A stretch of 64,000 nucleotides of DNA from Solirubrobacter deserti (GTDB taxonomy: Bacteria; Actinomycetota; Thermoleophilia; Solirubrobacterales; Solirubrobacteraceae). The notes under the pieces are model-generated. The model did no database searches. It saw nothing but the letters and a program-made list of their open reading frames with translations, and was not told the origin of the DNA. A program made the position numbers and the translations under genes. Each line of letters starts with the position of its first letter. Position 1 is the first letter of the stretch. Of this stretch, positions 1 to 7,931 are shown in pieces. The stretch is taken from positions 1 through 64,000 of the forward strand of contig NZ_QPKJ02000002.1 in assembly GCF_003344625.1 (NCBI RefSeq). Direction: 5' to 3'.

Positions 1-62
1 ATCGCTTCCGCCGGAGGTACCGGCAGTAGCGCGGGCCAGGACTGGGCCGTTCAAAGGTACGC

Positions 63-85
63 AACCGTCGAAAAGCACCACTTTG
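63..85 (+). repeat. Intergenic array motif, copy 1
   Basis: First of six copies of a ~23-bp motif with core AACCGTCGAAAAGCACCAC. It lies just beyond the 3' end of the EF-Tu domain III-like gene. A second short block, CGCTTCCGCC, occurs 50 bases to its left at 3-12; the copy at 1041 has the same block at nearly the same distance. Used here as the reference copy for counting matches. Confidence 0.7.
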
Positions 86-94
86 CCGCGGGCT

Positions 95-511
95 CTAGCT
101 ACTCATGTTCCGGTCCGGGGTCGCTTGTTCCGGTCCGGGGTCGCTGATCGACAGGATCGTCCCCGCCGCAATCACACGATGCCCTTCTTGGACTTCCAAC
201 ACCCCGCCCGGATGCACAAGATCCCGCACGGAGGACGGGTACCGAACGAGAACATCCGCACTGCACCTCCCGCCCGGCGGGACCCACAACGTGCCGTCGT
301 GCTCGAACACGTCCTCGCCCGGCCGTATGAAGATCAGGCATCCAGTCAGGTCGCGCTGGCTCTGCTCGGACGCGCCGCCGAACCAGCAGTCGGGCCTGTA
401 GCCGGACCCCACTGGCGTCTGCCGACCACCTTCCGCTGTGGTCGTAAGCAGCAGCGAGGCCACGAGCCGGAAGTGGTCGCCTGACGGAAGGTCGGGCGCG
501 GGTTCGTGCAC
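95..511 (-). CDS. Stand-alone EF-Tu domain III-like protein
   Basis: 138 residues from a GTG start. Four blocks match the last beta-barrel domain of EF-Tu by eye: EGGRQTP (27-33; EF-Tu has EGGRHTP), YRPDCWF (38-44; YRPQFYF), PGEDV (64-68; PGDNV) and EGHRVIAAG (109-117; EGGRTVGAG). There is no G domain and no GTP-binding motif, so it cannot be an elongation factor. In EF-Tu this domain contacts tRNA and EF-Ts; what a free copy does is unknown. The last residues are encoded across a 20-bp tandem duplication that is not a multiple of three, so the C-terminus has probably been rewritten. The gene sits between two copies of the intergenic array motif. Confidence 0.7.
   Translation of the reverse strand: MHEPAPDLPSGDHFRLVASLLLTTTAEGGRQTPVGSGYRPDCWFGGASEQSQRDLTGCLIFIRPGEDVFEHDGTLWVPPGGRCSADVLVRYPSSVRDLVHPGGVLEVQEGHRVIAAGTILSISDPGPEQATPDRNMSS
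106..145. repeat. Perfect 20-bp tandem duplication
   Basis: TGTTCCGGTCCGGGGTCGCT occurs twice head to tail (106-125 and 126-145) with no mismatch. It lies inside the 3' end of the EF-Tu domain III-like gene. Because 20 is not a multiple of three, the two copies are read in different frames and the duplication replaces the original C-terminus. Confidence 0.95.
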
Positions 512-576
512 GCGGGCAACCTACCGCGCTGCCCCCGTGGCAACTGCGCTCTTGCTGTGAGCGGCGAGAGTGGCCG

Positions 577-599
577 GATCGCCGACAAACACCACTTTG
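577..599 (+). repeat. Intergenic array motif, copy 2
   Basis: 18 of 23 bases match copy 1, including an unbroken CACCACTTTG. It lies in the 130-bp gap between the DUF1871-like gene and the EF-Tu domain III-like gene. Confidence 0.7.
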
Positions 600-641
600 G
601 CGGGGCGGGCGTAGATGCTCCGCGTGCATCGAAGGACTACG

Positions 642-947
642 TCACTCGTCGCGCCGTAGTTCGCAGACGGCGTCCGCGAATTCGCCGAGTCGACCGTTGT
701 AGCGGTCACCCCCGAAGTAGTAGGCCATGACGTCACCCGCGATCTGAAGGACATCTTCACGACTATCGGCCTCCGCAAGGACCAGGCGCGTGATTCGAGC
801 GGCCTCGGAGTCGTATTCGTCAGCTGGTGCACCCGTCGTGACGAGCCCGACTGGGTCCGCGTGGACGAGGGCGGCCGCCACGTCGCGAAAGATCAACGCG
901 AAGCGATCTGTGGCCTGCCACTCCGGATCGTTCGGGTCAACCGGCAC
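642..947 (-). CDS. DUF1871-like small protein
   Basis: 101 residues, GTG start. The pattern DPVGL (31-35) followed by PADEYDSEA (41-49) resembles the DPIG...DEYD signature of the DUF1871 family, small soluble proteins of unknown function found in accessory and toxin-immunity contexts. The rest is predicted mostly helical. No signal peptide or membrane segment. It is transcribed alone on the minus strand, 177 bp after the ADP-ribosyltransferase-like gene, with an array motif on each side. Family assignment is by eye and moderate; a role as an immunity protein is only a guess from context. Confidence 0.55.
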   Translation of the reverse strand: MPVDPNDPEWQATDRFALIFRDVAAALVHADPVGLVTTGAPADEYDSEAARITRLVLAEADSREDVLQIAGDVMAYYFGGDRYNGRLGEFADAVCELRRDE

Positions 948-1040
948 GCGCGCGACCGTATCGTCTCGATCGGCTCAGTCCCGCTTCCGCCTGAACGGAG
1001 CGGTGGCACTCCGGCCGGAGACTGCCGGCCAAATGAGCGA

Positions 1041-1063
1041 AACCATCGATAAACACCACATTC
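1041..1063 (+). repeat. Intergenic array motif, copy 3
   Basis: 18 of 23 bases match copy 1 (AACCATCGATAAACACCAC). It lies between the ADP-ribosyltransferase-like gene and the DUF1871-like gene. The accessory block CGCTTCCGCC is found at 982-991, 49 bases to the left, against 50 bases for copy 1, so the element is probably about 83 bp with two conserved ends. Confidence 0.7.
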
Positions 1064-1124
1064 GCTGAGCTCCGAGAAGCCGCCGTCTTCGCACGTGACC
1101 GAGGAGACCGCGGCGGGCCGCTCA

Positions 1125-1469
1125 TCAGGAAGGAGAGCGCAGCAGGCGGATGCGTGTCGGCTCGATCGGCTGGGTCCAGCAGAGGAACCCATCGATGATT
1201 CGGCAGGGCATGTCGAGGGGCCGGTCCTCGGCGTCGAAGTCGTGCGCAAGCGTGACCTCCCACACGTCGAGCTCGCCATGAAGGTGTCGCCCCATGGCGA
1301 CGAACCATCGCGCTTCTTCGCGATCGCGTGACAGGAAGATGCCGGCTTGTTCAGCCCCGATCGCGCCCGGGATGTTGTGTTCGGTGCCCATGCGGCGCCA
1401 GTCGAGTCCAAAACGGCGAATGGACTCGCGGTTTGCGCTGGGGCTTACGTGGAAAAGCACCGTCGCCAC
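1125..1469 (-). CDS. ADP-ribosyltransferase / 2'-phosphotransferase-like protein
   Basis: 114 residues. It opens with a strand and the pattern HVSPSANRESIRRFGLD (7-23), typical of ADP-ribosyltransferase and RNA 2'-phosphotransferase folds, where an H/R at the first strand binds NAD. GIFLSRDREEARWF (43-56) matches the next conserved block (fold element before the catalytic loop). No clear catalytic glutamate can be assigned by eye. Proteins of this size and type are common in mobile and toxin-antitoxin contexts. Start is ATG at 1469. Neighbours on both sides are separated by array motifs, so it seems to be its own unit. Confidence 0.55.
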   Translation of the reverse strand: MATVLFHVSPSANRESIRRFGLDWRRMGTEHNIPGAIGAEQAGIFLSRDREEARWFVAMGRHLHGELDVWEVTLAHDFDAEDRPLDMPCRIIDGFLCWTQPIEPTRIRLLRSPS

Positions 1470-1544
1470 CGGGCCATTGTGGCGACGTGGCGCTGCTTCA
1501 TCGCAGCCGGCGAGCCCGTACCGCTCGACCAGGAGAGGAGCGTC

Positions 1545-1567
1545 TTTCGTCGAGAAGCGCTACTTAG
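1545..1567 (+). repeat. Intergenic array motif, copy 4
   Basis: 16 of 23 bases match copy 1 and 18 of 23 match copy 5. It lies between the divergent ADP-ribosyltransferase-like gene (minus) and the 58-residue gene (plus). The motif keeps the same orientation even though the flanking genes point apart, which argues against it being a promoter. Confidence 0.6.
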
Positions 1568-1618
1568 GCTGGCCCGGCAGCTACCGTCGGACCCGTACTC
1601 AACGACCGCCGCGACGAC

Positions 1619-1795
1619 ATGACCCTCGCCGAACTGGTCGAGGAGCTCGAGCTCTCCTACCCCGAGAAGGTTGCGAGCTTCGAACGGCGGTATCCCGAGG
1701 CGATGGCCGGGGTCGCCGAGGACGATCTCGACGCATGTGATCCCGAGGACCTTGACGACCTCGCTGGCGACCTTCGCAGGCTGCTCCGCGTCTGA
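1619..1795 (+). CDS. Small acidic protein (58 residues)
   Basis: A short frame with clean actinobacterial codon use (most third positions G or C). It encodes a Leu/Glu/Asp-rich protein, beginning MTLAELVEELELSYPEK and ending DLDDLAGDLRRLLRV, predicted all-helical with an acidic centre. No known family is recognised. The frame is closed upstream by a TAG at 1565, so it is not part of a longer gene; the opposite strand also has an open frame but its composition is less natural. It might be an antitoxin-like or adaptor protein, but nothing in the sequence decides that. Confidence 0.5.
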   Translation: MTLAELVEELELSYPEKVASFERRYPEAMAGVAEDDLDACDPEDLDDLAGDLRRLLRV

Positions 1796-1819
1796 GCGCG
1801 CAGCAGCCCTCACGTTCTG

Positions 1820-1842
1820 TTTCGTCGAGTAACGCCACTTTC
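1820..1842 (+). repeat. Intergenic array motif, copy 5
   Basis: 15 of 23 bases match copy 1 and 18 of 23 match copy 4 (TTTCGTCGAGTAACGCCAC). It lies between the 58-residue and 65-residue genes, in the same orientation as the other copies. Confidence 0.6.
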
Positions 1843-1910
1843 GTTCCTCGTACGAGGTGCGCATCCCTCGGACGGCGCCTCGCGATGAATGCCGCTGTAG
1901 GTTGCGACGC

Positions 1911-2108
1911 ATGAACGACGACCAAGCGGGGACGGGCGCGACCACGGCTGTGCTCGTAGACACGCTGCTCGATCTTGAGGTCGACGTAGATCAGGTTCTG
2001 CAGATGACGACGGACGAGAAAGTCGCGGCTGTGAGCGCCGCTGCTGCTCGCGGAGACCTGTCTCAGGCGAAGGTCGAGTCTTTGCGCGGCTTTGGGATTC
2101 CCATCTGA
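1911..2108 (+). CDS. Hypothetical small protein (65 residues)
   Basis: ATG start at 1911. The protein is mostly helical, acidic in the first half, with TDEKVAAVSAAAARGDL near residue 38 and a hydrophobic tail ending GFGIPI. No family recognised, no signal peptide or membrane segment. Codon use is less GC-biased than in the chromosome after 4 kb, like its neighbours in this array. Alone between array motif copies 5 and 6. Confidence 0.45.
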   Translation: MNDDQAGTGATTAVLVDTLLDLEVDVDQVLQMTTDEKVAAVSAAAARGDLSQAKVESLRGFGIPI

Positions 2109-2148
2109 GAGCCGAGACCGGCGGCCCTGCCCACCGTCGAAGTAGCGG

Positions 2149-2171
2149 AACCGTCCAAAAGCGCTCTGTAT
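2149..2171 (+). repeat. Intergenic array motif, copy 6
   Basis: The first 16 bases match copy 1 at 14 positions (AACCGTCCAAAAGCGC); the right end is degenerate. It lies between the 65-residue gene and the pentapeptide-repeat gene and is the last clear copy. Confidence 0.55.
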
Positions 2172-2362
2172 GGCGGCGTGTTTTCGTTGCCGGAGGAGGG
2201 CTTCGCCGCCCGCTCGCACTTCACCTCGCATGAATGTCAGCGCACGCACAATCACGATCGTTCTGTCCCGAGCCCTGTCCCCGCTTCCCAGCGCTGATCG
2301 AATCGACACCTCTGGGCCAGCGCTTCCGATTGGGCTTAGGGCGGTGGGACTATGCCGCCAAG

Positions 2363-3475
2363 ATGTCTAACGAGCCAGCCCGGGGGGCCCAAGACAGCGC
2401 TAAAGACTCCGTAGGACCAGTGGCCGCCGGAGCGATTGCCGGGATCGGCGCCTTGCTGTCGTTCGCGGTTAGCTTGGTGACTGGCGCCGGAGTGCTATCC
2501 GCGGTCGGGGTGTCCGTCCTCTTGGGAGTGGGACTGTTCCTTTGGGCGCGTGACGCTAGTAAAGGATGGGGTGATCTCGGGCAAAGCATCTTCGTGAGCG
2601 TTGTCGTGGCGATCGCTTTGACCGCTGCGCAGCGGGACGGGGATAAGCGCCGCGAAGACCAGCTCCGGTTAAACGAACGCCGGCAGCAACGAGCCGATGA
2701 GAAGGAGAATCTGCAACTAACGCTCACGCTCGAGGAGGACCTAACCGGCTTGGCCCTTCCGGGACGGGACCTAAGTGGTCTTTTCCTGGTCCGCAAGATT
2801 CTCAAGAGAGCAAATCTGCAAGGTGCGGATCTTCGCCGCTCAGACCTTTCCGCCAGCGTGTTCGATGGCGCGACTTTGCGATGGGCACGGCTGGACCGGG
2901 CACGGATGGCGGGGACGCGCTTCGTCGGCACGGATCTCCGTGAAGCCCGGTTCGACGGCGCCAACCTCTCCGGTGTGTACTTCCGAGGCGCCAAGTCCCG
3001 ACGACTGAACGAGACTTCGTTCCGGCACGCGACACTCAACGCAAGCCATTTGGAACGTGCGGAACTTGTGGCGGCTGATCTTACAGAGAGCTCGCTGTAC
3101 GAGGCTCAACTCGACTGGGTCGACGCTAGACAGACCATTCTCCGGGACGCTGATCTGATGTGGGCCGACCTCCACGGAGCGAACCTGGCCGGCGCTGATC
3201 TCCGTGGCGCGAGTCTGCAAGGAACGAACTTCTGCGGCGCAGCTGGGCTGGACTCGGCGCGGCTTGCCGGCGCGCAGTACAGCCCCGATACACGGTGGCC
3301 GCGTGGGTTCGACCCGAAGTCTCGAGGGGCCACGAAAGACGAGTTCATCACGGTTGAGGAGGGATCTCTGGGTCAGCCGGTATGCATCGTCGGTCCGCTT
3401 CACGACGAAGAGGACCTCCCGTTCGACGGGAGCGATATCCCGTTCCTCGGGCAACATGGCGATAGCGACCCTTGA
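2363..3475 (+). CDS. Membrane-anchored pentapeptide-repeat protein
   Basis: 370 residues from ATG 2363, chosen because the frame upstream to 2234 has atypical composition. Residues about 20-65 form two hydrophobic helices and a third follows near 80-95, then a charged linker rich in Arg, Glu and Gln (about 97-125). From about residue 125 to 290 the protein is built of A(D/N)LxxA-type pentapeptides such as ANLQGADLRRSDL and ANLAGADLRGASL, which fold as a right-handed quadrilateral beta-helix. The last ~50 residues are acidic and non-repetitive. The family acts through protein or DNA-mimic interactions, and its target cannot be read from sequence. Codon use is clearly less GC-biased than downstream genes, suggesting acquisition. 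Confidence 0.8.
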   Translation: MSNEPARGAQDSAKDSVGPVAAGAIAGIGALLSFAVSLVTGAGVLSAVGVSVLLGVGLFLWARDASKGWGDLGQSIFVSVVVAIALTAAQRDGDKRREDQLRLNERRQQRADEKENLQLTLTLEEDLTGLALPGRDLSGLFLVRKILKRANLQGADLRRSDLSASVFDGATLRWARLDRARMAGTRFVGTDLREARFDGANLSGVYFRGAKSRRLNETSFRHATLNASHLERAELVAADLTESSLYEAQLDWVDARQTILRDADLMWADLHGANLAGADLRGASLQGTNFCGAAGLDSARLAGAQYSPDTRWPRGFDPKSRGATKDEFITVEEGSLGQPVCIVGPLHDEEDLPFDGSDIPFLGQHGDSDP

Positions 3476-3957
3476 GCCACCACCTCATGCTAAGTGGCGC
3501 TGCCGGGGCCGTACGGGCGCCGAGCCGCCGCGCTACTGCCCCACCGGCTTGGACCGCCCGTGCGGGAGGGCCTCTTCAGGTCGTTGATGCGCGCGCTCAC
3601 TGTCGACGTGGCCGCTCTCTGGCGCGCTGGTGACACCGGACGGGTGCGAGTCGTCACGGGTGCTTACGACGGACCCGTCGGCGGACGACGCGCTTCGACG
3701 GCGGTCGAAATATGCGTAATTGTGGACTACGCTTCTTTCCAAGATCTTCGAACTACCCGCTCCGGTGGCAGCGTGCTTGCGACCGCAGCGCGAATCGCAA
3801 TTGCGTGAGAGGCCGCGCCGAAGGCCGCTTTGACTGTCGGCTAGGGCGTCCCGTTTGCGGACGATACGCACGTTCAGTTACAGGACGGTCGAGCACGCCG
3901 CCGAACGACCGATCGGGGACGCACTAACCGTCATGCTGCTGGTTGCGGCCGGGACCG
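3476..3957. other. Stretch without a convincing gene; island edge
   Basis: 482 bp between the pentapeptide-repeat gene and the hydrolase gene. Frames of up to about 100 codons exist on both strands (for example a plus frame from 3587 to 3808) but none has convincing codon use or a recognisable product. Base composition changes from the lower-GC left part to the very GC-rich chromosome at about 3.9 kb. A weak reverse-oriented partial match to the array motif (AAGTGGCGCT) begins near 3491. Confidence 0.5.
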
Positions 3958-5262
3958 TCAGCGCGCGCGAGTGACGGCACCGCGCCCGCCGAGGTGAACG
4001 TCGAAGAACTCGACCACCCGTCGCTCGTACTCGCGCGGGTACTGGCGCAGCGCGGCCGTGTGAGAGGCGTGCGGCAGGTGCCAGAGGTGCGAGCGCTCGC
4101 CGCCGGCGTGGTCGTAGAGGTCGCCCCAGGTCTTCTCGACCTCGCCGGCCGCGATCAGCAGGCTCGGCGCGCGCATGCGGGCGATCTGGTCGGCGAGCGA
4201 GACGTCCGGGCCGGAGGTGCCCTGGATGGCCTCGATGGTCTTGAACATGAGCCAGCCGTTGAGGCGGGTCACGGGGCTGGAGGTGTACTCCTTGAGGTCC
4301 TCGTAGCCGATCGCGGCGGTCCCGTCGGCGACGACGGCGTTGACGTCGGTGCGGCGGGCGGCGATGTCGATCGCCATGTCGGCGCCGGTGGAGAGGCCGA
4401 GTGCGCCCACTCGGCCGGGCTGGACGTCCTCGCGCGTGGCGAGATAGTCGAGCGCGGCGGCGGCGTCCTTCTCGCGGCCCCAGCCGTAGGAGTTGGGGGT
4501 GCCGCCGCTGTCGCCCGTCCCGCGACCGCTGAAGAGCAGTACGCCGTACCCGTGGCGGACGAGCATCCGCGCGTGGCTGAGGGTGCCGCGGATGTCGCCG
4601 CTGCCGCCCGACATCATCAGCACGGCCGCGCCGGTGCGGGACGGGTGGTACCAGGCGTCGAGTTCCAGGCCGTCGGACGTGGTCAGGTGCACCGGCTCAT
4701 AGGCGGCGCTCGGCGGGCTGCCGACGGCCCGGTGCAGCGAGTGGACCTCGATGATGGCCATGCCGACCGGCATGTGGACGAACAGCGCCACGAGCGGGGA
4801 GACGGCGACCACGCCGGCGCGGATCGCCCAGCGCTTGAACGGGCTCGCGGTGCGCTCGCCGCGATGGCGGAACGGGATCCAGGCCGCGAGCGCGATCAGC
4901 ACGACGCCGGCGCCGAGCGCGAGGACGCCGGTGACGTCGTTGGCGGTGACGCCCTCGGACACGATGTGATGCGCGTGACGGCCACCGTTGAGCGTGGCGA
5001 GCACGCCGAACGTGAACGCCGTCGCCGCGCGGAGGCCGGGGCGCATCGACTCGAATCGGGCGACGGCGGCCAGTGTGGTCACGAGCGCGATCGCCAGCGC
5101 GATCCCGTGCTGGAAGAGCGGCACGCCGGCACCGGGAAGCAGGATCGCGTCGTCGACCGCGTGCGCGAGCGCGAACACGGCCGCCACGCTGAACACCACC
5201 GCCTCCGCCGAACGAGCACGAAGCCGTGGGAGCCGAGGCGCCCTCAGGGCAGAGGTGGTCAT
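3958..5262 (-). CDS. Membrane alpha/beta hydrolase
   Basis: 434 residues. The first ~170 residues contain about five hydrophobic helices, so the catalytic part is tethered to the membrane. From about residue 185 it is an alpha/beta hydrolase: MSGGSGD (217-223) forms the oxyanion region, GLSTG (289-293) is the nucleophile elbow with Ser291, and HASH near residue 406 supplies the likely catalytic His. The substrate is not evident; the closest general class is dienelactone-hydrolase or S9-like hydrolases with an N-terminal membrane domain. ATG 5262 is preceded by a GGAG ribosome site. A long open frame on the opposite strand is its mirror image. Confidence 0.8.
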   Translation of the reverse strand: MTTSALRAPRLPRLRARSAEAVVFSVAAVFALAHAVDDAILLPGAGVPLFQHGIALAIALVTTLAAVARFESMRPGLRAATAFTFGVLATLNGGRHAHHIVSEGVTANDVTGVLALGAGVVLIALAAWIPFRHRGERTASPFKRWAIRAGVVAVSPLVALFVHMPVGMAIIEVHSLHRAVGSPPSAAYEPVHLTTSDGLELDAWYHPSRTGAAVLMMSGGSGDIRGTLSHARMLVRHGYGVLLFSGRGTGDSGGTPNSYGWGREKDAAAALDYLATREDVQPGRVGALGLSTGADMAIDIAARRTDVNAVVADGTAAIGYEDLKEYTSSPVTRLNGWLMFKTIEAIQGTSGPDVSLADQIARMRAPSLLIAAGEVEKTWGDLYDHAGGERSHLWHLPHASHTAALRQYPREYERRVVEFFDVHLGGRGAVTRAR

Positions 5263-5462: not shown

Positions 5463-6638
5463 CTAGAAGTCCAGCGCGCGGATCCGGGTGACGTACTTCG
5501 TCCAGCCGGTGGTGCGCTCGTCGCCGGTCCAGTAGAGGACGCGGTTGGCGCCGCGCAGGCCGCGCGGCGTGACCGGCCGCGCGCAGAAGCCGTCCGGCCT
5601 CGCGGTGAGCTGTCGCGTTGTCCAGGTCCGGCCTTCGTCCGGCGTGAACCACTGCTCGACCTGGCTCCACGTGCCGATCGTTCGCGACAGGTAGACGAAG
5701 CGCGGGTCCTCGTGGTCGAGCGACGCCCCGCCGGACCCGAAGTGCTCGCGTCCGCGTCCCGCCTCGATGATCTTGCGGCTGACCCACCGCTCACCGTTGT
5801 GGTACGCGTAGTAAAAGGTGTCCTGGCCGGCTCGCAGCCGTGTGTAGACGACGCGCGGGCGGCCCTCGGCGGTGAGCGCGATGTCCATCGGCCAGGCGCT
5901 CCCGCCCTGTGCGGTGAAGCGGTAGATGCGGTCGAGCGCGGAGACGTGCAGTGGCACGTCGTCCAGGGTTCCGAGCCGGCGCCCGCTCATCGCGGAGAGC
6001 TCTCCTGCTTCATAGCGGAGGTAGTGGAGGCCACTGGGCGTGCTGTGCGCGTTCCCGTTGCTGAAGATCGCGTGGATCCGCCGGTTGCCGTCCCCGACGT
6101 ACTTGGCGTACGGCCGCGCCCCGCCGCCGCTGCGGACGAGCTCGCGTGCCGGCACCCACGTGTGGCCGTCCTCGGTGTAGGAGAACGTCGGGTTCCAGCC
6201 GCCGCCGCGCCAGAACAGCCACAGCTTGTCCCGGAGCTGGATCGGGTTCGGGTACGTGTAGCCCAGCCCGCCGGGGACGTTGGTCGGCACGGTCCGGACC
6301 CGCCCGAACTCCTGGATCGAGTGACGATGCAGGGCGACCATGTAGCGCATCACGCTCGGGATGCCGGGCGGCGGCAGGTGGTGTCCGGAGTGCGGTGAGA
6401 AGAACACCATCAGGTGCCCGTCGCGGCGGAACACGAGCGAAGGGTTGTTGTGATCGTCGCGGCCCAGGCCGCGGAAGATCAGGCGCTTGGACAGCCGGCC
6501 GCCGCGGGTGTAGCGGGCGACCCACACGTTGCCGGTCGTCGAGATCCAGCCGGTGAAGGTGTGCCCGTCGTGCGAGATCGCGCGCGGATCGCCGAAGTAC
6601 GACCACGCACCGGCTCCGAGCTCGCGATCCACCGCCAT
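5463..6638 (-). CDS. BNR_4-type sialidase-fold (beta-propeller) protein
   Basis: 391 residues from ATG 6638, which has a strong GAGGAGGA ribosome site; the frame extends further upstream but that part looks non-coding. The sequence is a run of blades with Asp-box-like and BNR elements, such as DHNNPSLVFRRDGHLMVFF, SYTEDGHTWVPA and TPDEGRTWTT, matching the BNR_4 family of polysaccharide-active or carbohydrate-binding propellers. No signal peptide is visible, so a cytoplasmic location or non-classical export is possible. Substrate unknown. It lies 40 bp after another propeller-like gene on the same strand and may share its transcript. Confidence 0.7.
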   Translation of the reverse strand: MAVDRELGAGAWSYFGDPRAISHDGHTFTGWISTTGNVWVARYTRGGRLSKRLIFRGLGRDDHNNPSLVFRRDGHLMVFFSPHSGHHLPPPGIPSVMRYMVALHRHSIQEFGRVRTVPTNVPGGLGYTYPNPIQLRDKLWLFWRGGGWNPTFSYTEDGHTWVPARELVRSGGGARPYAKYVGDGNRRIHAIFSNGNAHSTPSGLHYLRYEAGELSAMSGRRLGTLDDVPLHVSALDRIYRFTAQGGSAWPMDIALTAEGRPRVVYTRLRAGQDTFYYAYHNGERWVSRKIIEAGRGREHFGSGGASLDHEDPRFVYLSRTIGTWSQVEQWFTPDEGRTWTTRQLTARPDGFCARPVTPRGLRGANRVLYWTGDERTTGWTKYVTRIRALDF

Positions 6639-6678
6639 CGTGTCCTCCTCCTCGAGGGTTTGGGCGAGTATCCCTGAG

Positions 6679-7884
6679 TCAAGGGACCCGCGTGACGGCG
6701 TGGGCCGAGTGGCGTCGACCCGTGCGCGTCCACAGCACGAGCGCCCGCGCGCCGGGGCTGAGCCGCACGATGCGCGGCGCAGCGCTCGGCCACGGCTCGC
6801 CAAGCGCCACGGGCTCGCCGAAGCCCGCGGGCGAGGCAACGCGCTGTGCAGCCATGACGCGCTCGTCGGGGGACCTTGAGGACGGCGCTCGGGCGGTCCA
6901 CGCGACCACGGCGCGCCCGTCGTCGCCGGCGGCCAACACCGGCGCCCGCGGCGCGGCGTTCGCTCCGAGCACGGCGGCGACGCTGAGCGGCATCCCCGGT
7001 CCGGCCTCGGACAAGCGCACCCGCGCGCCGGCCGGCTCGACCCACGCCACAGCCGTGTGCCCGGCGCGCGTCACGGTCACGTCGCCGAGCGTCACGCCGC
7101 CGCCCGGGTTGACGACCTCGGCGGCCCCGAACGGCTCACCGGCCGGCGCCCGGTGCAGGCGCAGCCCATCGCCGGGGCGCAGCGGGACACGCTGAAGGCT
7201 GTAGACCACCGCTGCGGTCCCGTCGGCGCCGATCGCGGCGCGAGGGACGTCACTGGACTCCGCGGCCAGCCGGTGCGGCGGCCGGAACCGTGCACCGGCC
7301 GCACGCAGCGCCGCCCACGCCGTCGGCCGCAGCGTCGACCGCCATGTCAGGACGACATCCCCGCGGTCCCCGATCGCGGCGGCGACGGCCGTGCAGCACG
7401 GCACGCGCTGCAGTGGCGAGATGGCCTGCGGCCGGCCGAACGCTCCGTCGCCGGGGTCGCGGGCCGCGGCCTCGAGCCGCCAGCGCCCGTCCGGCCGATG
7501 CGCGTACCACACGACCACCGCGGCGCCGCCACGCGCCACCGCGAGCGCCGCCAGGTCTGCCCGGCTGCCCCGTGTCACCGTGCGCAGCCGGCCGACCCGC
7601 CCGGCGGCGTCGATGCCGGCGACGCGCACCCGCCGCCCGGGCGCTCGCCCGCTGTGCAGCGCGATCAAGCCACGCCCGTCCTCGGCCAGGGCCGCTCGAA
7701 CCGGCCGCTGGCCTGCGGGCAGCCGCAGAAGCGTCCGCCAGGGCCCGAACGACTCACGGGGCGCCGCGACGCGCCACGCCACGGATGACGAAGTCCGCCC
7801 GACCTCGAACGCGCGCCCCGTGTGATCGACGGCGAGGTCCATGGGAATCGTGGCGGCGAGCAGAAGCCCGAGCGCGGCGGTCAC
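6679..7884 (-). CDS. Hypothetical propeller-like protein
   Basis: About 401 residues. I place the start at GTG 7884, which gives an N-terminus with a hydrophobic stretch (TAALGLLLAATIP) like a short signal peptide; a CTG overlapping the upstream stop at 7933 is an alternative. The body repeats a pattern of roughly 45-50 residues with a hydrophobic strand V(V)WxA or AVVVWYA after D/G-rich turns (for example DGRGLIALHSG, DDGRAVVAWTA), consistent with a seven-bladed propeller. No catalytic residues recognised. Forms a same-strand group with the BNR_4 gene after it and the SnoaL-like genes before it. Confidence 0.6.
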   Translation of the reverse strand: MTAALGLLLAATIPMDLAVDHTGRAFEVGRTSSSVAWRVAAPRESFGPWRTLLRLPAGQRPVRAALAEDGRGLIALHSGRAPGRRVRVAGIDAAGRVGRLRTVTRGSRADLAALAVARGGAAVVVWYAHRPDGRWRLEAAARDPGDGAFGRPQAISPLQRVPCCTAVAAAIGDRGDVVLTWRSTLRPTAWAALRAAGARFRPPHRLAAESSDVPRAAIGADGTAAVVYSLQRVPLRPGDGLRLHRAPAGEPFGAAEVVNPGGGVTLGDVTVTRAGHTAVAWVEPAGARVRLSEAGPGMPLSVAAVLGANAAPRAPVLAAGDDGRAVVAWTARAPSSRSPDERVMAAQRVASPAGFGEPVALGEPWPSAAPRIVRLSPGARALVLWTRTGRRHSAHAVTRVP

Positions 7885-7931
7885 ATCCTCGACAACACGT
7901 CGCCGCCACCTGCGGAGCGCAATGCCGAGAC

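Follow-up and report, generated by a model that had tools for sequence, protein, structure and literature searches.

Oriented arrays of small gene cassettes in Solirubrobacter, probably recombined at a six-base core by an enzyme supplied in trans

Introduction

Integrons are the classic example of a device that stockpiles genes. The stretch analysed here, called the window, is the start (64 kb) of contig C93 (957 kb) of Solirubrobacter deserti (genome of 7.55 Mb in 428 contigs). Five sequences from S. deserti CPCC 204708 agree with this genome at 99.6–100% where they align, which places it in that species or very close to it. The window opens with a series of short genes separated by a motif that always points the same way, which raises the question of whether this is a gene-cassette array and, if so, of what kind. 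The original prediction, made from the letters of the window, was of an array with one oriented site per unit, perhaps belonging to a different or diverged system. Comparison with other Solirubrobacter genomes supported the array and bore out the guess of a different system. The window very probably holds a mobile cassette array whose units are recombined at the core of a 30-bp site by an enzyme supplied in trans. In the open-access literature (titles and abstract openings) no description of such arrays in Solirubrobacter was found. Six genomes of the genus are referred to as G000 to G005, G000 being S. deserti and G003 S. phytolaccae.

Results

The window array and its site

Six copies of the motif had been claimed within positions 1 to 2171, one in each gap and in constant orientation. 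All six were present on the + strand within three bases of the positions given, one per gap, and kept their direction while the genes switched from the − to the + strand. The copies are real, but the array does not stop at 2171 and runs on to a terminal palindromic element, here called attE, at 3690–3756. The features are as follows.

1–71, + strand: 71-bp assembly node ending exactly with CGTCGA, common to three contig ends, C93 (the window), C424 and C211 reversed
54–84, + strand: recombination site 1, core CGTCGA at 66–71, pattern match
95–511, − strand: cassette 1 gene, 138 amino acids (aa), similarity to EF-Tu domain 3 weak and below cut-off
568–598, + strand: recombination site 2, core CGCCGA at 580–585, pattern match
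642–947, − strand: cassette 2 gene, 101 aa, no Pfam family
1032–1062, + strand: recombination site 3, core CATCGA at 1044–1049, pattern match
1125–1469, − strand: cassette 3 gene, 114 aa, no Pfam family
1536–1566, + strand: recombination site 4, core CGTCGA at 1548–1553, pattern match
1619–1795, + strand: cassette 4 gene, 58 aa, no family over cut-off
1811–1841, + strand: recombination site 5, core CGTCGA at 1823–1828, pattern match
1857–2108, + strand: cassette 5 gene, up to 83 aa, no family over cut-off
2140–2170, + strand: recombination site 6, degenerate, core CGTCCA at 2152–2157, position weight matrix score 23.1
2234–3475, + strand: pentapeptide-repeat protein gene, 413 aa, final unit ahead of the terminal element
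3690–3756, + strand: attE, divergent copy of the terminal palindromic element, centre TGTGGA at 3721–3726, E-value 4.5e-9, score 22.3

The assembly breaks at recombination site 1, which is why the window begins with a contig end. A pattern search allowing up to three mismatches recovered five of the six sites and no other match in the 64 kb (0.10 expected), with a maximum of one match in any of 100 shuffles. Site 6, at 2152, was missed by the pattern and recovered by the position weight matrix, and a refined matrix at a score of at least 19 returned the same six sites and none besides in the window. An Rfam scan of positions 1–4200 gave nothing over the gathering score.

Conservation is confined to a single block. 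Across 44 copies from G000, every column above 0.35 bit falls at −12 to +18 of the core CGTCGA, and a matrix of 145 copies gave the consensus AAGTRGCGnnAY-CGTCGA-nAAGCGCYACTT, a dyad of two inverted 12-base arms flanking an asymmetric six-base centre. A larger, two-ended element of ~83 bp had been proposed from CGCTTCCGCC lying to the left of copies 1 and 3. That sequence is present there and is not a general second end, being found in the −80 to −30 stretch of 186 sites of the genus three times exactly and ten times with up to one mismatch. Given this rarity and the restriction of conserved columns to −12 to +18, the ~83-bp element is no feature of the site.

The arms of 185 distinct sites show no covariation (876 Watson–Crick pairs versus 869 ± 14 when shuffled), and on that ground they are read as independent, predicted protein-binding half-sites and not as the stem of a hairpin. 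The original prediction had suggested folding each gap. With DNA parameters, the folds of the two strands of the six window sites had z-scores of −4.4 to +1.5 and showed no shared structure. Site 5 folds strongly on both strands, with one hairpin outside the core and one including it, and site 3 folds moderately (z about −2.2).

Exchange of cassettes at the core

Contig ends in G000 overlap by 71 bp, and the sequences that meet there fork at the core. Contig C211 (5.2 kb), read in site direction, has CGTCGA at both its start and its end. The contigs leading into it, C69 and C399, have 71 identical bases beginning with CGTCGA and differ at the base preceding the core; those leading out, C93 (the window) and C424, match exactly over 65 bases ahead of the core and over CGTCGA itself, and diverge after it. 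For C200 and C393 the identity starts one base before the core, while C416 and C390 match exactly for 65 bases and to the end of the core and are divergent afterwards. In two arrays of S. phytolaccae a 360-bp stretch is 97% alike to the end of CGTCGA, past which the two copies are unrelated. The four forks and this intragenomic pair all change at the short core between the inverted arms or at most one base away. Between species, an Imm7 cassette of S. deserti and S. phytolaccae is 81–82% alike from core to core with different neighbours, and the DNA of cassette 1 (95–511) has a relative in an array of G001, 81% alike over 413 bp.

Given the switch of identity at the core in the forks, the S. 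phytolaccae repeat and the cross-species cassettes, the units, on this comparative evidence, have been moved by site-specific recombination at the six-base core. The switches lie inside a degenerate 30-bp site, so homologous recombination is not an easy explanation, and a site-specific recombinase fits. It is extremely improbable that the junctions are an artefact of assembly or contamination, in which short k-mers held in common break contigs at the repeat and mimic junctions. The G000 assembly is indeed fragmented, breaks at sites and has the 71-bp overlaps, but G001, a genome of four contigs, has arrays too, as do named records of S. phytolaccae and S. taibaiensis, the 71-bp nodes contain cassette sequence outside the site, and the 97% pair of S. 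phytolaccae is internal to two contigs. The artefact is largely refuted on these grounds.

The half-sites themselves give a finer view. A cassette would run from core to core, with a right half-site first and a left half-site last. The 158 site-to-site units give 21 homologous pairs, in seven of which the match reaches a unit end (five left and five right half-sites in all). At these ends the cassettes' own right halves are 77% identical versus 58% for random pairs (P 0.0016) and their own left halves 68% versus 46% (P 0.001); the neighbouring halves are 43% and 43% identical. Where the match stops short of the unit end, own halves are at background (59% and 49%). Judged by these alignments, half-sites travel with their cassette.

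Conserved gene order across strains had been named as a finding that would tell against such exchange. The block to the right of the window array (5465–7903) has its best relative, 84% alike, on contig C68 of S. taibaiensis, where it lies 3.7 kb from attE and an array in the same arrangement as in the window. No cassettes pair between the two arrays, and the block has no match in G001 or G003. Part of the block recurs on C348 in a second, 78% copy, and a relative of the window gene closest to attE lies on C269, for which reason the two arrays only probably occupy the same place. Content thus seems to differ between species at one place, the identity of that place being probable.

Distribution and orientation of the sites

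A matrix search found 200 sites in 643 kb of loci, mostly picked for containing the motif, versus 8 for the reversed matrix. In 151 genomes the strict pattern gave 13, 18, 1, 3, 17 and 1 matches in G000 to G005 and 0–2 in each of the remaining genomes, while the reversed pattern gave none in the six Solirubrobacter and one in each of two other genomes. A sequence model, with 150 candidates scored per genome, returned 80, 56, 15, 54, 59 and 49 matches at E-values up to 1 in G000 to G005, the best being 2e-4 or better in five Solirubrobacter genomes and 0.005 in G002. Because of this weak best match, and because G002 is without attE, arrays are assigned by sequence to five of the six genomes, and G002 is taken to be without them. 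An exact pattern search over 84,980 species gave 21 stretches, 12 of them in S. deserti, S. phytolaccae and S. taibaiensis and the other nine, outside Solirubrobacter, with a single site each. Thus in the 151 genomes, and by the exact pattern in 84,980 species, the site was not found arrayed outside Solirubrobacter. Among viral contigs the attE pattern had no match and the site pattern one contig with a single site.

Adjacent sites at most 6 kb apart point the same way in 143 of 143 pairs, with no flips. The motif clusters in arrays and avoids genes, contrary to the random scatter or coding location that had been named as grounds for doubt: 3 of 177 site centres lie inside called genes, though 53% of array DNA was called coding by a simple in-house gene caller. 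Units have a median of 680 bp, 56 of the 158 are without a called gene, and gene direction is random (86 with the site, 76 against).

These data bear on whether the motif is a dispersed intergenic repeat of regulatory or structural function (promoter, terminator or binding site) that undergoes no recombination. A degenerate 30-bp dyad between genes does resemble a binding site, but the strict orientation whatever the gene direction, the clustering in arrays and the switches of identity at the core in forks and shared cassettes make this highly improbable.

The terminal element attE

In site direction, many arrays have a second, apparently undescribed element at their downstream end. It comprises TTCGACGnnnATCGAAATTAGCGnnnnTGTGGAnnnnCGCTnATTTCGAnnnCGnTCGAA, is ~60 bp long and palindromic overall, and has the centre TGTGGA. 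A model built from nine copies found it in G000, G001, G003 and G004 and weakly in G005; there was none in G002, and matches were marginal (E-value 0.03–0.05) in 4 of 55 non-Solirubrobacter genomes. In 34 clusters of at least two sites, attE lies within 9 kb downstream in 14 and the available sequence ends too soon in 15, so that 14 of 19 readable array ends carry it. A set of 19 copies (score of at least 24, plus the window's at 22.3) includes the nine that built the model and comes from loci many of which were chosen for the motif; in all 19 a site of the same direction lies upstream, in 18 of them no more than 8.4 kb away, and the downstream side is free of sites over 9 kb or as far as the available sequence reaches (1.4 kb to over 9 kb). 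Six weaker matches, picked for attE alone, make a fairer test: upstream of three there is a site of the same direction, one has only two sub-threshold sites, and none has a site on the wrong side. The element attE may be an anchor or capture site, the counterpart of integron attI.

In S. phytolaccae the terminal element at L322:9757 has the centre CGTGGA, intermediate between CGTCGA and TGTGGA, and scores with both matrices. A cassette-type site at L102:9410 has the same centre, CGTGGA.

The recombinase

The original prediction had taken the lack of a recombinase as evidence against a mobile array. The flanks of arrays, inspected by eye, had no gene in common and no recombinase gene consistently adjacent; two Xer enzymes are encoded elsewhere. 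Because the arrays do not carry a recombinase consistently, the enzyme would be supplied in trans. Tyrosine recombinases were collected (57 proteins; 8 of 65 places tried yielded none and 3 of 69 listed matches were left out) and compared at a family threshold of 40% identity, and among them only the XerC and XerD pair was found in all six genomes. NCBIfam assigned the protein at C93:918170 to XerD (332.8 bits, cut-off 329.6), and that at C1:538499 is nearest XerC, under the cut-off (305.5 of 335.15).

One good copy of a putative dif site was found per genome, with one weak extra match in G004, and reads ATGCTCGCTAA-TCGACG-TTATGTGAACT or a close variant. Its centre is TCGACG in G000, G001, G004 and G005 and TCAACG in G002 and G003. 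Reverse-complemented, TCGACG gives the cassette core CGTCGA, and on the XerC side AGCG comes at equal distance. CGTCGA occurs 903 times in 498,002 strand bases of background and is followed by AGCG in 15 of the 903; the chance of a dif-like centre with AGCG at the fixed register in either direction is near 6e-5, judged post hoc. The identity of dif centre and cassette core in four of six genomes is only suggestive of a link to Xer, because the dif arms match poorly.

On this basis the host XerC/XerD pair is tentatively named as the most likely candidate. Several observations speak against it. Set among 900 CGTCGA positions of the background, the dif arms rank in the top 1.3–7.7%, but their scores are negative and fall far short of those of cassette sites; the cassette-site arms are symmetric, unlike a two-enzyme dif; S. 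phytolaccae has arrays but the dif centre TCAACG; and G002 has both Xer genes yet no arrays.

It is possible, if rather doubtful, that the same arrays are moved instead by a dedicated tyrosine recombinase, for example a phage-type or integrative and conjugative element-type integrase, that comes and goes and leaves arrays behind. Symmetric arms suggest a single enzyme, and integrase genes do adjoin some arrays: one of 372 aa before a site in L104, one of 373 aa near attE in L112, and one of 406 aa between attE and a lexA-like gene in L245 of S. taibaiensis. The family of the first two has no member in S. deserti, that of L245 was not found in G003 or G005, and no such family among the 57 proteins occurs in all five array genomes. 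These array-side integrases, being patchy, were rejected as the common enzyme.

At L245:9508–12372 (S. taibaiensis) and L247:8040–9935 (S. deserti) a tyrosine integrase, linked by eye to lexA, and an excisionase-like gene stand in the same order; attE and one site adjoin this locus only in S. taibaiensis. Small resolvase-like proteins of G000, G001, G003, G004 and G005 were dropped, as the catalytic motif usual for such enzymes was missing on inspection by eye. This family (L265–L273, L275) occurs in all five array genomes, and two members have an N-terminal extension. The remaining serine recombinases were compared in part.

Comparison with integrons and dif modules

The arrays resemble integrons and superintegrons in their small accessory genes, in having one oriented site per cassette and many cassettes per array, in the distinct site at one end of many arrays, and in cassettes common to species in differing surroundings. 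They differ in the site, a 30-bp dyad of double-stranded type with independent arms and not a folded attC, and in that gene direction is random, several arrays occur per chromosome without their own recombinase gene and the end element is palindromic. In integrons, cassette genes are mostly co-oriented with the site. A tie to an integron integrase (IntI) found no support: a search of G000 with TIGR02249 gave nothing over the cut-off, the best match reaching 72.5 of 265 bits, although, as the assembly is 96.7% complete, an IntI gene could have been missed. The XerC-like and XerD proteins score 114 and 136 bits with TIGR02249. In integrons attI stands next to intI; here attE stands at one end of 14 of 19 readable arrays, and no intI was found in G000.

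A true integron remnant of the CALIN kind (clusters without intI), with diverged attC sites and IntI lost or diverged, would account for large arrays of small accessory genes, each with an oriented site, and for a special site ending many of them. Clusters without intI are present here, but the sites lack attC features, being one continuous block with neither covarying arms nor a shared fold in the six window sites; with the random gene direction and the low IntI score, this makes a remnant very unlikely.

In Acinetobacter, genes lie as modules between dif-like sites (pdif), and the modules form linear multi-module islands on plasmids and a chromosome; each module is flanked by an inverted pair of sites (C/D and D/C) with homology to the binding sites of XerC/XerD, and the host Xer enzymes are thought to act in trans, according to two reports (PMC6449649, PMC12907356). 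The Solirubrobacter arrays share with the modules, as described there, the placing of genes between sites and the linear islands. They differ in that all sites are direct (143 pairs, no inversion), the arms are unlike those of the putative dif of the host and attE closes many of the arrays. With chromosomal dif the cassette site shares the arrangement of two arms flanking a six-base centre; the putative dif occurs once per genome, the weak extra match in G004 excepted, and has unlike arms (TTATGTGAACT on the XerD side), whereas the cassette site is symmetric. Given that neither IntI nor attC features were found and that pdif sites are inverted and Xer-like, the arrays would be a kind of mobile cassette belonging to neither family.

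Discussion

In the proposed mechanism the window opens with one end of an array of mobile gene cassettes that sits on the chromosome. A recombinase provided in trans, of tyrosine type if the chemistry is as supposed, would cross strands within the core, allowing cassettes to be cut out, presumably as circles, inserted beside another site and exchanged between arrays and species. The element attE closes one side of many arrays, the window's included, perhaps as anchor or point of capture.

Several observations weigh against this account. The evidence is wholly comparative, and it is by comparison that the sites, their orientation, attE and the exchange of cassettes at the core are established. 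The assembly that yields the forks is fragmented (428 contigs), has 5% contamination and could mix strains, though the switch would still lie at the core. One of the five own left half-sites mismatches (2 of 12 bases) and another is weak (7 of 12). Five of the 19 readable arrays are without attE within 9 kb (two in G003, one in G004 and two in G005, which are both of its readable ones), and two of the six attE matches picked for attE alone have no nearby site. Site quality shows no gradient with distance from attE (Spearman 0.05, 108 sites). Because the attE core differs from the cassette core, a simple crossover between the two is not explained.

The case is evenly balanced that Solirubrobacter has evolved its own equivalent of the integron, with multi-locus arrays, double-stranded recombination by XerC/XerD or a single recombinase, attE as capture site and no integrase of its own. 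If the account holds, neither IntI nor folded single-stranded sites are needed for large orderly gene arrays to arise, and a third kind of cassette system stands beside integrons and pdif modules in a phylum, the Actinobacteria, that is almost without integrons according to one report (PMC9024848). IntI enzymes retain double-strand exchange as an ancestral activity, as stated in another (PMC4792948), and from this it follows that a double-strand cassette array could show the pre-integron form. The site and attE would also be a simple annotation marker for a store of accessory genes that have gone unstudied, among them those of an Imm7 immunity protein and a GmrSD restriction enzyme.

Cassette contents and further observations

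Pfam families were checked for 26 S. deserti proteins, six from the window array and 20 of 30 listed from other arrays. Eleven had a family over the cut-off, including Imm7, GmrSD, DUF5063, a HAD domain, an AhpC/TSA protein, an epimerase, an insertion-sequence transposase and the window's pentapeptide protein. Array DNA of two species at L099:14703–15108 and L106:18076–18481 is 81% alike and overlaps matches to a tyrosine integrase domain; it is perhaps an integrase fragment carried as a cassette.

A conserved repeat of 150–350 bp, apparently non-coding, lies near array ends in nine places and, judged from the coordinates, points to the array in eight, the ninth being that in L111. A structured RNA and a small mobile element are both candidates for it. 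The copies are as follows.

L115:6287–6645
L099:9787–9964
L101:9896–10160
L106:10939–11110
L037:1294–1520
L040:4395–4641, cut off beside a cassette site
L103:4520–4763
L114:915–1271
L111:18809–19167, 4.7 kb from the array

Further G000 contig ends at the edges of array contigs have 71–72 bp in common (L031:14567–14638 with L044:10963–11034, and L034:4407–4477 with L038:17443–17513), and by eye these look like insertion-sequence ends.

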